39,619 nt of DNA. It comes from Pseudomonadota bacterium. GTDB taxonomy: Bacteria > Desulfobacterota > Desulfobulbia > Desulfobulbales > SURF-16. The position numbers and the translations under genes were made by a program. Each line of letters opens with the position of its first letter. Positions within the stretch are counted from its first letter, which is position 1. This document shows positions 30,448-34,562 of this stretch, in pieces. The stretch spans positions 1 to 39,619 of the forward strand of contig JAHILF010000036.1 in the NCBI GenBank assembly GCA_018897105.1, read 5' to 3'. Under the pieces are notes generated by a model that was not told the origin of the DNA, made no database searches, and was given only the letters and a program-made list of their open reading frames with translations.

Positions 30448-30957
30448 TTAAACCCAGATCGCGTTCCAGAAAGAATAATCACCGACGCGTTGTACCAAAC
30501 CCGCCCGCACCGGATTGGCGATCATATAGCGGGCCACGGCCCGCAGGTCTTCTTCCCTTCGTAATCCGTGGTCGTGATAGGCCTGCTCCCACAGGGGGCC
30601 CTTCCTTGCCAGCACCCGGTTGGCCCTCCGGGCGATGGCCGATTTGATCCGGTTCACCACCAGGTCCAGGGGTTCCTCTTCACCCAATTGGATGAGCCAA
30701 TGGGCGTGATCCGGCATGAGCACCCAGGCCAGCATGCGGGCATCGCCCAGCAGGGCGCGGTCCTCGAAACAGCGGGCCGCAGCGCAGCCCGCGTGGAAAT
30801 CAGCGAAGAAACATTGCCGCCCAATCGTCGTGCTGGTCACCAGATAGACATGGTTGGCAAGGGATACCCGGCCCCGTCGCAAGGCCCGATGGCCGGATTT
30901 TTCCGGCTGCTGGTGCGGGTCACGCATGGAATGGCGATTGTTGCTCTGCTGGCTCAT
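30448..30957 (-). CDS. REP-associated tyrosine transposase (RAYT, IS200/Y1 family)
   Basis: 169 residues. RAYTs are domesticated single-copy Y1 HUH nucleases that process REP palindromes. The family pattern is clear: RRGRVSLANHVYLVTSTT, then FADFHAGC, the HUH motif MPDHAHWLIQL (His84 and His86), a variable middle KSAIARRANRVLARKGPLWEQAYHDHGLRREEDL, the catalytic Tyr144 in ARYMIANPVRAGLV, and the usual end GDYSFWNAIWV. ATG 30957 is the first start outside the REP sequence; ATG 30927 is an alternative, and neither has a good ribosome site. REP C lies 7 bp upstream and REP B just downstream, so the gene is bracketed by REPs in opposite orientation. Confidence 0.9.
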   Translation of the reverse strand: MSQQSNNRHSMRDPHQQPEKSGHRALRRGRVSLANHVYLVTSTTIGRQCFFADFHAGCAAARCFEDRALLGDARMLAWVLMPDHAHWLIQLGEEEPLDLVVNRIKSAIARRANRVLARKGPLWEQAYHDHGLRREEDLRAVARYMIANPVRAGLVQRVGDYSFWNAIWV

Positions 30958-30963
30958 AATGTT

Positions 30964-30987
30964 GTCGCGGGCATGGCCCGCTCCTAC
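30964..30987 (-). repeat. REP palindrome C, inverted
   Basis: Read on the minus strand it has the GTAGGAG head and a GCGGGC-CAT-GCCCGC palindrome with GAC tail. It sits immediately upstream of the RAYT start. The G-to-C variant of the arm keeps full pairing, indicating selection on the hairpin. Confidence 0.75.
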
Positions 30988-31046
30988 CGCCCGACAGGAG
31001 ATGATTGCAGTAAATTCCGCCCCGAAAATTCCACCACGCTCCAACC

Positions 31047-31070
31047 GTAGGAGGGGGCCATGCCCCCGAC
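31047..31070 (+). repeat. REP palindrome D
   Basis: Identical in sequence to copy A: GTAGGAG head, GGGGGC-CAT-GCCCCC, GAC. It lies between the RAYT gene and the NACHT gene end. With copy C it forms a head-to-head REP pair (BIME-like). Confidence 0.75.
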
Positions 31071-31167
31071 CAATCAATCCCTGATCGCATCCGGCCAAGG
31101 GGTGGTGGAAAAAAATTCCCACTGCCTGCGGCGCCAGGAAAAACCAGAGTAACAGAGCCCAGAGGGA
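31071..31167. other. Short gene-free stretch downstream of the NACHT gene
   Basis: No gene, terminator or template repeat for the NACHT-FGE tail was seen in this stretch. It was inspected because a diversity-generating retroelement would normally place a template near the variable region. Confidence 0.4.
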
Positions 31168-34100
31168 TCAGAGGCCAGAGGTCAATGGGGACGCCACAAC
31201 CCGAATCCCGCTGAGCCCGTCCCTGGAGTGCGAATTGAGCCTGTCCCGGTCGGCGCAACGCACGAGCTGCTCGTCGTTGAAGAACGAGCCGCCGCGCAGC
31301 ACCCGACCATCACTGCTCGATGCATTCAAATTCTCCCGTCCATCGGCAGGATCATAGGGATAGCCCTTATACAGACTTCGACACCACTCCCAGACGTTGC
31401 GGGCCAGTTCCTCCGCGCCATGGGGGCTTGCATCTTTAAAAAAGCACCCCACCGCGCTGGGGTACCCAATCTGCGTTTCGTCATAATTGGCCCGGTTCGC
31501 ATCCTCCTCTTCCCCCCAGGGGTAGACCCGTTTGGCCAGGGCATTCTCCTGATATACAATCGAACCTCCGCCGCCAAACAATGCCAATTCCACCGGTTTG
31601 GCAAACAATGGTTGCGCGGGAATCCGCAGGCCGCCCCGGGCGGCTTTCTCCCACTGGGCCTCGCTGGGCAGGCCAATCTGCCAGCCCGCGCCAAGCAAAC
31701 CTGCTTCCCGCAGGTGGCAGGTCAGCCACCGGGTAAAGGCCAGGGCTTCATACCAGCTTACCCCCACCACAGGGTGATTGCTCAGATGAAGAGGTGCGCC
31801 AAAGTCAACAGGAGCACCACGCCAATCGTCATCGTAGTTCCCCTTGAACCGGCCATCCCGCCAAAAGCCAGCCTGTTCCGCCTCTGGCCAGTAGCTCTTC
31901 TCGCCATAGCCGCCGGCCGCCACAAAGGCCTGGAACTGGGCATTGGTCACCGGGTAGCGGCCGATCCAGCAGTCCTGGGCCACCGCGCGGCAGAGGTGTT
32001 GTTCGTCCCCGTCCCCCATCCAGAACGGCCCGGCGGGCATGAAACAGAACTCCATCTCCTCCACCGTCATGACTTCAGGCCGGGGATCGCCAAGCCCGGC
32101 CAGCACCCGGCCTGCCCCGGCCCGTTCCAGGGCCGGCATTTCCTGGCCGCGCATCAGATACAGCAGGCCGCGTTTTACCCGGTCAACCCTGTCCCGGTTA
32201 CGCTCACTCACCTTGTCCAGATTGGCTGATTCCAGCAGGGCCTGGCCCGCCAGGTACGCCCCCCAACTGTCTGCCGCATCGTGAAGTTTATCATCCGGTT
32301 CCCGGAAGCAAAGGGCCTCAACCAGCAGCCAGATGGCCGCCGCCGTGCCCCGCGTCGTCTTGGCCGCGGCCAGCAGGGCCACCTCGCGCCAGCGGCCGGG
32401 TTCCCGCCGGGCCAACTCGGCGAGCAGGTCCGGAAAATCATGATCAGTGAGATGGCAGGCCGCCAGGTATTCCTGAAAGGTGCGATGGGGAAAGGTGTAG
32501 ACCCCAACACCATGCGGTACCAGCAAGCCGGCCCGCTGGCTGAGATACTCAACCAGGCGTTGCGGTCTGACGTCCGGGTTCTGGCTGAGCCCCATGAGTC
32601 CCGCCACCAGTTCCTTCTCCGCCACGTCGGCGGTGCCAGCCAGATCCGGCTGGGCGGCATGGCCGTCATAGGCCAGTTCATTCAAGAAATCCCGGACCTT
32701 GTCCTTGTCAACCTGCAGCCATTCCGCCAGACTCGGCTGGATGACCGCCACCTGGCCCTGGGCGTCCCGCACCACCCGCTGGCTCTCCCATCGGTCGATG
32801 AGCAGATTGACCGCATCGGCGTAAAGCTCCTCCCTTTTTTCCGGCAGGTTGCCGCCCCGCCAGGCATGGAGGCTGGCCATCAGGGTCAGCAACAGCGGCC
32901 TCTCGGCCAGCCCGCGCAGACGTTCACCGTCAAAGATGGCCTTCTTCAGGTCTTCAGCCCGGCCCTGACTGTCCTGGGCGTCAAGATGGCGCAACTCGGC
33001 GACATGAGCATACCAGCGATCCACGAAACGGCGGATCTGCCCGGCCGAAAAGGGGGCCAGCACCGTGACCCCAAAGTTCGTCAGCCGCCAGTCCTGCTGC
33101 TGATAGGCATAGGTGCGGCCGGTGACCAGTATCCGGCAGCGGGCAAAAACAGCGGCAAAGTCCTCCACCGCCTCCTTGATCTGGGCCCGCCGGCGGTGGG
33201 CTTCCGGGACTTCATCGAGGCCGTCAAGCAGGATGAGGCCGCCCTTGGTCAGCAGCTCCTGGTGCAGGTGAGGGGCATAATCAACCAGGGCAGCTGTCTG
33301 CAGTTCGGTTTTGATGAAACACCACAGATGATCGGCCGTGGCCCGGACTCCCGCGGCAGGCAGACCCCTGGCGGCGAAATCCCGCAGCACCACCCGCACC
33401 GGCAGGATGGGCCCGTGCTCCCAGGTTTGCGGACTTTCCTTACTCTCCTCTTCCTCAGTGTCGTCTTCTTTCGGCAGCGGGGTGGTCAGCAGGGCAAGGT
33501 TGGCGCGCTTGCTCTGCAAGGCCTCGCCAGCCAGGCACAGGGCCACGAAATTGACAAAGGTACTCTTGCCGCTGCCGGGATCGCCCAGCAGCACCAGTCG
33601 GCGGTGCCGGTTCAGCTGATCCAGGGCGGAGAGATGGTGCACCTCTCGCTCCGGTCTGCCGCCGAGTAACATTGCCTCCTGCTTTTCCTGCATCTCCGGG
33701 GTGCGGGTGAGCAAAGCGGTATACACGGCATCCAGGTTAAGCCCGGCCTCGGATTCGTCGGCCGCCTTGGGATCAACCCCGGCCAGGGACAGGGCTCCGG
33801 TCTGCTCGAACAGACGGTTGAGGTAGGCATCGCGCAAATGGGAGACGTCCGGGTCAGGTGTGTCGTGAATATGCACATCCTGGTGTTCGACATAGGTTTC
33901 CGCCTGCACCTGCCGGTTGTGATCGCCGGTTATAATGGTGCTGTCCTGAACCGTATCAACGATAACGCCCCTTTCTCCGGCACCCTTGCTTCCTGCCCCT
34001 TGAACGATGGCTCCTGAGCCTTCCAACCGGGCCTCGAAGTGTTGCAGGTTCAAGGGGCGGATATCTTTCATCAAGGCCGCAATCTCCCCGGCAAGGGAGG

Positions 34101-34377
34101 CATCCTCGGTTAGCACCTTTCTGATCTGCAGCCGCAGGGCCGCCGCGGCATCTTCATCTGCGGGGTGGTCGATCACCTCCTGCACCGCCTCTCGCACCGT
34201 TTCTTTCTCTTCCCTGCCCTGCCAGAGGCTCTGCCACAGGGACTTGGCCTTGCCCCAGCCCTCCCTGCCGATCTCCTGGACAACCGCCTCGGCCGCCTTT
34301 TCCCCGGCTTTTGCCAGGTACGGCGTGAGGGGAATCACCAGGGCCGCCACCTCTTTGGCCAGCATGGCGATATCCAT
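31168..34377 (-). CDS. NACHT NTPase with C-terminal formylglycine-generating-enzyme/C-lectin-like domain
   Basis: 1069 residues. Residues 1-110 form a helical domain (LAKEVAALVIPLTPYLAKAG and onward); 118-175 is a Gly-rich beta-type stretch (GSGAIVQGAGSKGAGERGVI). The NACHT domain has Walker A GDPGSGKST (265-273) and Walker B LILLDGLDEV (381-390), followed by a helical region to about 765. Residues 770-1065 are an FGE-sulfatase/C-lectin-like domain (MPAGPFWMGDGDE, GLPSEAQWEKAARGG, LARNVWEWC, RVLRGGSF). NACHT/STAND proteins are switches that oligomerise on sensing a ligand; several bacterial ones defend against phage. The last 31 residues before the end (1029-1059) have the spacing of a retroelement-diversified variable region. 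GAGGAG precedes ATG 34377; the longer frame from 34473 translates a REP and is rejected. Confidence 0.88.
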   Translation of the reverse strand: MDIAMLAKEVAALVIPLTPYLAKAGEKAAEAVVQEIGREGWGKAKSLWQSLWQGREEKETVREAVQEVIDHPADEDAAAALRLQIRKVLTEDASLAGEIAALMKDIRPLNLQHFEARLEGSGAIVQGAGSKGAGERGVIVDTVQDSTIITGDHNRQVQAETYVEHQDVHIHDTPDPDVSHLRDAYLNRLFEQTGALSLAGVDPKAADESEAGLNLDAVYTALLTRTPEMQEKQEAMLLGGRPEREVHHLSALDQLNRHRRLVLLGDPGSGKSTFVNFVALCLAGEALQSKRANLALLTTPLPKEDDTEEEESKESPQTWEHGPILPVRVVLRDFAARGLPAAGVRATADHLWCFIKTELQTAALVDYAPHLHQELLTKGGLILLDGLDEVPEAHRRRAQIKEAVEDFAAVFARCRILVTGRTYAYQQQDWRLTNFGVTVLAPFSAGQIRRFVDRWYAHVAELRHLDAQDSQGRAEDLKKAIFDGERLRGLAERPLLLTLMASLHAWRGGNLPEKREELYADAVNLLIDRWESQRVVRDAQGQVAVIQPSLAEWLQVDKDKVRDFLNELAYDGHAAQPDLAGTADVAEKELVAGLMGLSQNPDVRPQRLVEYLSQRAGLLVPHGVGVYTFPHRTFQEYLAACHLTDHDFPDLLAELARREPGRWREVALLAAAKTTRGTAAAIWLLVEALCFREPDDKLHDAADSWGAYLAGQALLESANLDKVSERNRDRVDRVKRGLLYLMRGQEMPALERAGAGRVLAGLGDPRPEVMTVEEMEFCFMPAGPFWMGDGDEQHLCRAVAQDCWIGRYPVTNAQFQAFVAAGGYGEKSYWPEAEQAGFWRDGRFKGNYDDDWRGAPVDFGAPLHLSNHPVVGVSWYEALAFTRWLTCHLREAGLLGAGWQIGLPSEAQWEKAARGGLRIPAQPLFAKPVELALFGGGGSIVYQENALAKRVYPWGEEEDANRANYDETQIGYPSAVGCFFKDASPHGAEELARNVWEWCRSLYKGYPYDPADGRENLNASSSDGRVLRGGSFFNDEQLVRCADRDRLNSHSRDGLSGIRVVASPLTSGL

Positions 34378-34431
34378 TATTTTCTTCTCCTCTTTCCTGA
34401 TGTATTCTTCTTTGCACAGCGGGGCAACATT

Positions 34432-34455
34432 ATCGCGGGCATGGCCCGCTCCTAC
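34432..34455 (-). repeat. REP palindrome E, inverted
   Basis: Same element as copy C with one end-base change (AT for GT): head GTAGGAG on the minus strand, arms GCGGGC and GCCCGC. It lies 55 bp upstream of the NACHT start, so the NACHT gene is bracketed by REPs D and E. Confidence 0.75.
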
Positions 34456-34562
34456 CGGCGAATGGGTATGCAATAGTTTTTGCCGAATACGGCATAAGCT
34501 GGATCACCAGAACCGTCACTTTCTAACCAGCGTAGCAAAATCCATTACTTCTCCCTTATTGA

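Follow-up and report, generated by a model that had tools for sequence, protein, structure and literature searches.

The closest described counterparts of the gene analysed here are targets of diversity-generating retroelements (DGRs), which the accessible text of Dore et al. 2024 (PMC10907252) assigns to 'clade 5D' and in which a NACHT/nSTAND switch is joined to a lectin-fold domain bearing a variable region (VR). The same text describes the lectin domains on signal transduction ATPases with numerous domains (STAND proteins) as lacking experimental characterization. Other DGR variable proteins, TvpA of Treponema denticola (PDB 2y3c) and TaqVP of Thermus aquaticus (PDB 5vf4), have a C-type-lectin fold of the FGE type. 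We examined a gene that combines a NACHT domain with an FGE-type domain of this fold on contig JAHILF010000036.1 of a Pseudomonadota bacterium (assembly GCA_018897105.1); 'the window' denotes the whole stretch of 39,619 nucleotides (nt) that was analysed. To our knowledge, TvpA and TaqVP are not fused to NACHT, unlike the window protein. The C-terminal tail of this protein is best explained as an orphaned, frozen VR that was once written by a DGR whose matching reverse transcriptase (RT) and template are gone from the genome, a reading to which we assign a probability of about 0.78. Loci, genomes and contigs used for comparison carry our own L, G and C numbers.

31168–34473, minus strand: open reading frame (ORF) of the NACHT–FGE protein, 1101 codons, TTG start as listed.
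33007–33603, minus strand: NACHT nucleoside triphosphatase (NTPase) domain, residues 291–489 (Pfam PF05729, 35.5 bits, cut-off 26.7).
31195–32052, minus strand: FGE-sulfatase/C-type-lectin-fold domain, residues 808–1093 (Pfam PF03781, 132.8 bits, cut-off 23.3).
31201–31293, minus strand: VR-like tail, GGSF to GIR, 31 codons, recognized by a codon test, by the contrast between framework and variable codons and by ungapped alignment to the L069 template peptide.
31168–31200, minus strand: block after the VR, including the stop codon; candidate end of an initiation of mutagenic homing (IMH) sequence, with DNA conserved in other NACHT–FGE genes.

The tail of the NACHT–FGE protein is very probably a variable region

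The 93 nt at 31201–31293 (minus strand, in frame) read GGSFFNDEQLVRCADRDRLNSHSRDGLSGIR and encode residues 1061–1091 of the TTG-initiated ORF, equivalent to residues 1029–1059 counted from the ATG at codon 33. A first-pass annotation, made from the sequence alone, had described these 31 residues as the C-terminal end of an FGE/C-lectin-like domain on a NACHT protein and had aligned them without gaps to a DGR pattern. Position and frame were confirmed, and the tail aligns ungapped to the template peptide of L069, a DGR locus of the same order. All 13 codons listed in that annotation are present and 13/13 end in C. These codons had been picked post hoc, and the test was redone on columns set beforehand, namely the 11 columns at which half or more of five templates, recognized through mismatches at template A, carry AAC or AAT. 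The expected number of C-ending codons was derived from the amino acids present and from codon usage in the 553-codon part of this ORF that L004 contains. In the window tail, 9/11 codons end in C against 3.7 expected (p = 0.0004), the pattern of A-site rewriting of NNC codons in a C-terminal lectin-fold domain, and a wider, hand-picked set of 14 columns gives 11/14 against 5.1 expected (p = 0.0005). Among 38 FGE tails, which were kept only if they fitted the search expression and lay in frames of at least 120 codons, the window tail ranks second and is level with L040 on 14 columns. Tails with a template in their own locus, six in all, range from p < 0.0001 to 0.14 (14 columns), whereas seven GGCW-type tails of ordinary FGE-type proteins fail the test (0.16–0.91 on 11 columns, 0.16–0.78 on 14); the tail of L156, whose DGR status is not established, gives p = 0.0008.

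Comparison of the DNA with homologues gives a second line of evidence. Identity was scored in four parts: the domain before the tail, the framework codons of the tail, its predicted variable codons and the nucleotides after it. Against L044, a homologue from the same genus (G002:C136), the four values are 400/720 (56%), 43/51 (84%), 16/42 (38%) and 29/30 (97%), and the post-tail block differs at one of 33 nt, with 29/30 coding nucleotides identical. In the same order, they are 368/720 (51%), 36/51 (71%), 14/42 (33%) and 25/30 (83%) against L132, a Chloroflexi target with its own template (THP_Bin_29); 487/849, 34/51, 16/42 and 23/30 against L037; 456/777, 37/51, 14/42 and 16/21 against L038; and 365/675, 39/51, 20/42 and 5/12 against one of two genes in L041. 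Framework DNA is better conserved than the preceding domain in each of these comparisons. Used as the sole query against the collected loci, the post-tail DNA matches the 3′ ends of NACHT–FGE genes in L044 (E = 1.6e-28), both VRs of L132 (3.9e-11), L037 (1.6e-9), L041 (8.5e-7), L038 (3e-6) and L043 (0.005); weaker matches (E of at least 0.065) also land elsewhere, and the block as a 23-base pattern has 0 matches in viral contigs. The match falls past the stop codon in L038 and in one of the two genes of L041, where protein constraint is therefore no explanation for it. At the end that corresponds to this block, the templates of L043 and L132 diverge. Conservation of framework and VR-end DNA with template-bearing targets is clear for L132 and weak for L043.

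Several relatives retain the machinery of diversification. L069 (G034) is a complete-looking DGR with Avd (PF22296, 62.9 bits), an RT, a template and two targets, the first a NACHT–FGE protein and the second bearing a KAP NTPase; all 14 mismatches between template and first target fall at template A (14/14), as do 9/11 for the second. The Chloroflexi metagenome-assembled genome (MAG) THP_Bin_29 (G059) has six RTs with GLPIGNLTSQ in the regions fetched (L127–L132). Its NACHT–FGE protein in L043 shares 52% identity with the window protein over the best segment and has its own template, with 9/9 mismatches at template A, and for the L132 targets the counts are 12/13 and 11/12. In RI_153 (MAG G062, L041), two NACHT–FGE genes adjoin an Avd-like ORF and an RT in which GLPVGNLTSQ was read by eye; no template for the two tails was found in 12 kb around that RT. 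The codon test, the framework contrast, the shared 3′ DNA and the relatives with templates agree, and suggest that the tail at 31201–31293 is, as first proposed, very probably a DGR-type VR on a NACHT/FGE protein.

The assembly holds no matching template and no intact writer

The source assembly comprises 4.95 Mb in 177 contigs. A search of it with the tail DNA returned the tail itself and short chance matches only (best non-self E = 0.7), whereas a template constructed on the scheme of the first-pass annotation and planted in 4.9 Mb of random sequence was detected by local BLAST, with settings that may differ from those of the genome search, at E = 7e-19 to 1e-34. The window contains no template, as had been noted from the start, and no template/variable pair; two pairs reported there by the finder were rejected because both derive from a single 36-nt repeat. 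Near 285, 640, 856 and 1287 the window has a recurrent 36-nt repeat, GTGCTCAACGCCTTTCGGCATCGAAGATAAAATCAC, that resembles an array of clustered regularly interspaced short palindromic repeats (CRISPR). No template was found in the collected stretches of the genome, nor was one found elsewhere in the genome for the paralogue tails on C124 and C158.

The RVT_1 model matches three places in the assembly, two CRISPR-type fragments and one broken DGR-type relic, and no intact DGR-type RT was found there. RVT_1 detects DGR enzymes of other genomes, such as that of G002:C142 at 5e-15, and a like enzyme in this assembly would therefore have shown. The two CRISPR-side fragments (C97 and C138) were rejected as DGR enzymes: RT/Cas1 models fit them best, they lie at contig ends and they read QGSPISP in place of GN..SQ, which we take to be the mark of a non-DGR RT. 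One of them adjoins repeats that by eye resemble a CRISPR array. Remains of other FGE-bearing systems and a paralogue of the window gene are present on separate contigs.

L049:1–2756 (C99) and L045:1–480 (C54): dead DGR with a caspase-like/FGE target, a disrupted-looking accessory ORF and a split RT.
L047:3–680 (C124): second DGR remnant, consisting of the 3′ end of an FGE gene, its tail VR-like, an 8-bp hairpin and then a truncated Avd-like ORF.
L046:7171–10302 (C8, same genome): paralogous NACHT–FGE gene, 1043 amino acids, with a VR-like tail.

The C54 fragment is of DGR type. Its best PDB sequence match is 8ub7, an RT that we take to be the BPP-1 DGR enzyme, and it is 69–71% identical to a 334-codon enzyme in G034 with GLPIGNLVSQ. 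The first part of the same enzyme lies at the end of C99 (61% over 69 residues), behind an FGE-domain gene that includes a caspase-like part (66.4 bits, below the cut-off) and behind an accessory ORF that by eye seems disrupted beside its G034 relative, which has an HRDC domain. Between the two RT parts lies a palindromic element resembling a miniature inverted-repeat transposable element (MITE), with the repeated letters GGTGCGCGATC at its flanks, and by eye C99 and C54 both end inside this element, with an overlap of about 120 nt. The C54 relic lacks the catalytic half of the enzyme, no C99/C54 template was found, and the ORF after the relic is presumably folC-like. On C124, no RT follows the Avd-like ORF and no template was found; this is the single Avd match in the genome, below the cut-off, truncated and on a contig other than that of the window. 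The sole DGR-type RT of the assembly is a broken relic of another cassette. The proposal in the first-pass annotation that the variable region acts in trans is left unsupported by a 4.95 Mb assembly with no template, no intact DGR-type RT and an Avd match that is truncated and below the cut-off; the absence of RT and template from the genome, which that annotation had said would speak against it, is largely what the search returned, in a 177-contig draft.

Within the class, 22 of the 257 genomes searched carry an RT of the L069 kind at E 1e-30; neither the own genome nor any of G001–G005 does, which does not make the genus devoid of DGRs. G058, the genome to which L036 belongs, gave no RVT_1 match at E 0.001 and may represent another instance of the orphan state; L038, from the same MAG, carries the post-tail array described below as well. 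The paralogue on C8 passes the codon test (p = 0.0014 and 0.0016) and has no template in the surrounding stretch examined. In every letter of the 31-codon tail it agrees with its orthologue G002:C145 from another species of the genus, the genes being 93% identical over 3.4 kb, and at least one such tail has therefore gone unrewritten since the two species parted. The G002 copy is broken by a stop.

These observations suggest a course of events for the window gene. The C-terminal FGE/C-type-lectin domain of a NACHT (STAND-type) switch would have been a DGR target, here or in an ancestor, and retrohoming from an adenine-rich template would have rewritten about a dozen codons, with the framework codons and the DNA just past the tail kept. 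After loss of the matching RT and template, the last written tip would have been inherited as ordinary fixed sequence, and it probably continues to serve as a sensor tip of a single fixed specificity by which the NACHT domain is switched. With no writer in the assembly, a fixed tip is the best reading, and the loss of the cassette appears to be real rather than an assembly gap.

A CTCTG-type array follows the tail

The DNA immediately downstream of the tail was compared with the flanks of known VRs.

31144–31182, minus strand: five CTCTG units about 7–9 nt apart, spanning the stop codon (chain of 5).
31125–31138, minus strand: site at which some other VRs bear a GC hairpin; here a stem of at most 4 bp, equalled by 73.5% of shuffles.

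In the Bordetella phage BPP-1 DGR, according to the accessible text of Guo et al. 2011 (PMC3240598), the VR is followed by a short conserved end and next by an inverted repeat, as in relatives of the window gene. Guo et al. report that homing was essentially undetectable in a polymerase chain reaction (PCR) assay when the BPP-1 stem was disrupted; a 2026 study (PMC12875486) reports that deletion of the inverted repeat impaired repair severely but not fully. The hairpin of BPP-1 is 8 bp and lies near the VR, whereas in THP_Bin_29 targets (L043, L132, L127 and L131) a CTCTG-like array comes first and a hairpin of 7–9 bp follows at 48–57 nt. The G002 homologue of the window gene has a 5-bp stem. 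After the window tail no such hairpin was seen: an inverted-repeat scan, which also misses many template-bearing VRs, found a 4-bp stem at best, at chance level. The missing hairpin fits a loss of function and is no proof of it.

The array is unusual within the window, where the other 26 gene ends counted have chains of 0–2 and 1/27 ends in total reaches 5. We measured chains of CTG/TTG at 6–9 nt spacing in 63 template/variable pairs from 53 cellular and viral loci, reduced from 95 pairs by similarity and by removal of those with less than 60 nt of flank. Chains average 2.33 after VRs and 1.16 after templates (Wilcoxon p = 2e-6, with pairs that are not independent), and chains of at least 4 follow 15/63 VRs against 0/63 templates; most VRs have no strong array. 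An array period of exactly 8 was rejected in favour of about 7. A chain of 5 occurs at 16/466 gene ends in the collected loci, the window's included, and every one of these 16 reads like the tail of an FGE or other lectin-type domain, although one is partly masked. These ends were counted after removal of duplicates and of ORFs mostly covered by longer ones; they come from loci picked for FGE genes or RTs, so that the rate does not hold for whole genomes, and some of these loci also served to shape the chain measure.

The best-surviving alternative concerns this array and leaves the tail a former VR: the shared post-tail DNA would be a general repeat or a terminator and no retrohoming signal. 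Heptamer-like arrays of other letters behind some ordinary genes of the genus (L149, L146 and two ends in L050), T runs after several hairpins and the 48/63 VRs below a chain of 4 speak for it, and the exclusive association of 5-unit chains with lectin-type tails (16/16) and the 15 to 0 excess of long chains after VRs over templates speak against it. We regard it as a serious contender that falls a little short of even odds. More doubtful still is the bolder proposal that the pyrimidine-TG array (CTCTG, TTCTG or TTTG, 6–9 nt apart, before the hairpin) that ends some cellular and viral DGR VRs would be an undescribed part of the retrohoming target site, would mark orphaned VRs that lack a template, and would reveal a genome keeping receptors from lost retroelements as a fixed inherited repertoire; as a whole we consider it rather unlikely. 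No report of a CTCTG-type array was found in the literature covered, outside which most subscription papers fall.

Weighing the evidence for an orphaned variable region

Several observations weigh against an orphaned VR. The assembly lies in 177 contigs, and the CRISPR-type RT of C97 and C138 is probably split across two contig ends, so that sequence would have been lost at joins. The genome G002 of the same genus has an intact-looking DGR of another, non-FGE kind, L136 (G002:C142:3000–14000), which has the GLPIGNLTSQ motif, two VRs with mismatches at template A in 29/32 and 24/27 cases, and an RT 30% identical to that of L069; this DGR was rejected as the source of the window tail, since the peptide encoded by its template reads as the end of a non-FGE protein. 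In the FGE tree, RT-adjacent and RT-free genes are intermixed (5 changes), which rejects the RT-adjacent genes as a single clade, and because they form no single group the window gene may have been orphaned before it arrived. Turning to the tail, the ordinary-looking tails of L147, L151 and L158 pass the codon test weakly (p = 0.005–0.044 on 11 columns, 0.05–0.22 on 14), unlike the seven GGCW-type tails, and the homologues L044, L036 and both L041 genes fail it. The codon test is therefore imperfect and insufficient by itself to carry the VR claim. The DNA contrast is weak with L043 (489/840 before the tail, 31/51 framework, 18/36 variable, 12/18 after) and reversed at the framework in the other L041 gene (454/756, 20/51, 19/42 and 22/30), and the hairpin scan is a weak instrument, as many VRs with templates show no long perfect stem.

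Some of these points would suit a VR that is still live, with RT and template in the cell but in assembly gaps or on a lost contig or plasmid, and acting in trans. The fragmented assembly with its split RT, the DGR of G002, although of another kind, and the array retained after the window VR are all compatible with this, and the accessible text of PMC10907252 proposes trans action on remote targets in Thiohalocapsa PB-PSB1. We nevertheless judge a live VR unlikely, given a genome search with no template match better than E = 0.7, a control in which planted templates were readily recovered from random sequence, the absence of the L069-kind RT from the own genome and G001–G005, and the hairpin not seen after the tail. 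Least probable, and very unlikely, is an ordinary, never-diversified FGE tail, which would explain the GGS..R.A.R..GFR skeleton (by itself ordinary for the fold, and seen with that fold in FGE-sulfatase, EgtB and GldK family proteins), the C-rich third base (22/1071 windows of 31 codons in the gene, the tail's included, are equally C-rich) and the three ordinary-looking tails with low p, but not the separation of the window tail from the GGCW-type tails in the codon test, the post-tail DNA that it has in common with template-bearing genes, partly outside coding sequence, or the excess conservation of framework DNA over the preceding domain.

Gene, predicted structure and neighbourhood

The window protein belongs to the FGE-sulfatase family by its PF03781 score and its FGE fold, and to the NACHT STAND NTPases by a NACHT domain above the curated cut-off. 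Its first 260 residues have no family match at the thresholds used. The model for EruA, a NACHT antiphage protein, scores 23.1 bits against a cut-off of 1000, PADLOC families give no match at E 0.001, and NCBIfam enzyme models all score far under their cut-offs. The ATG at codon 33 (34377) is likelier as the start than the listed TTG, because the first listed codons cross an apparent repetitive extragenic palindromic (REP)-type repeat. By eye, what seems to be the same repeat stands at about 30955–30995, near a transposase ORF, and at 34435–34473, in the first codons of the ORF.

An AlphaFold model of the last 330 residues has a predicted local distance difference test (pLDDT) score of 74 and a predicted template modelling (pTM) score of 0.82. 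Compared with FGE-type folds, it scores Z = 18.8 for EgtB (best), 16.4 for TvpA (2y3c), 15.8 for human FGE, 9.6 for TaqVP and 9.3 for MTD. Confidence falls below 50 at model residues 292–303, a portion of the tail, and the placement of the variable residues is therefore not taken from the model. The sequence match between the window protein and 2y3c has E = 0.0015, with no one stretch significant alone. In L044 (G002:C136:2982–3530), the 180 N-terminal residues share 77% identity with the window protein and occupy a separate 193-codon frame, with 40% identity over residues 206–946; this split would represent either a module exchange or a break.

30448–31122, minus strand: Y1 (IS200-like) transposase ORF (Pfam PF01797), neighbouring gene and no part of a DGR.

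The neighbours of the gene are this transposase ORF, a histidine kinase and a cation-efflux protein, none of them a DGR component.

Comparison with known systems

The window protein would be a defence sensor and its tip would bind a ligand. The lectin tip probably senses this ligand and the NACHT part probably switches, as the accessible text of PMC10907252 proposes for published NACHT–lectin DGR targets. Sensor tips made by DGRs on NACHT proteins would represent a proposed bacterial form of adaptive recognition. If a genome retains several tips after loss of the writer, this would point to a use for them as fixed receptors, and an orphan protein offers one specificity that can be tested without continuing change. 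The array after the VR, if its proposed role is true, would serve to locate orphans and would open to testing one element of retrohoming, a step that is poorly understood.

The 'clade 5D' systems, as set out in the accessible portion of PMC10907252, resemble the genome analysed here in two further respects: MITE-like elements replace DGR parts, and some targets are distant from the RT. Unlike the 'clade 5D' targets described there, the window gene lies in a genome with neither template nor intact DGR RT in its assembly and with two separate sets of DGR remains, both broken. NACHT–lectin DGR targets as such are already published; the less familiar parts are the orphan state and the CTCTG-type array that follows some VRs.

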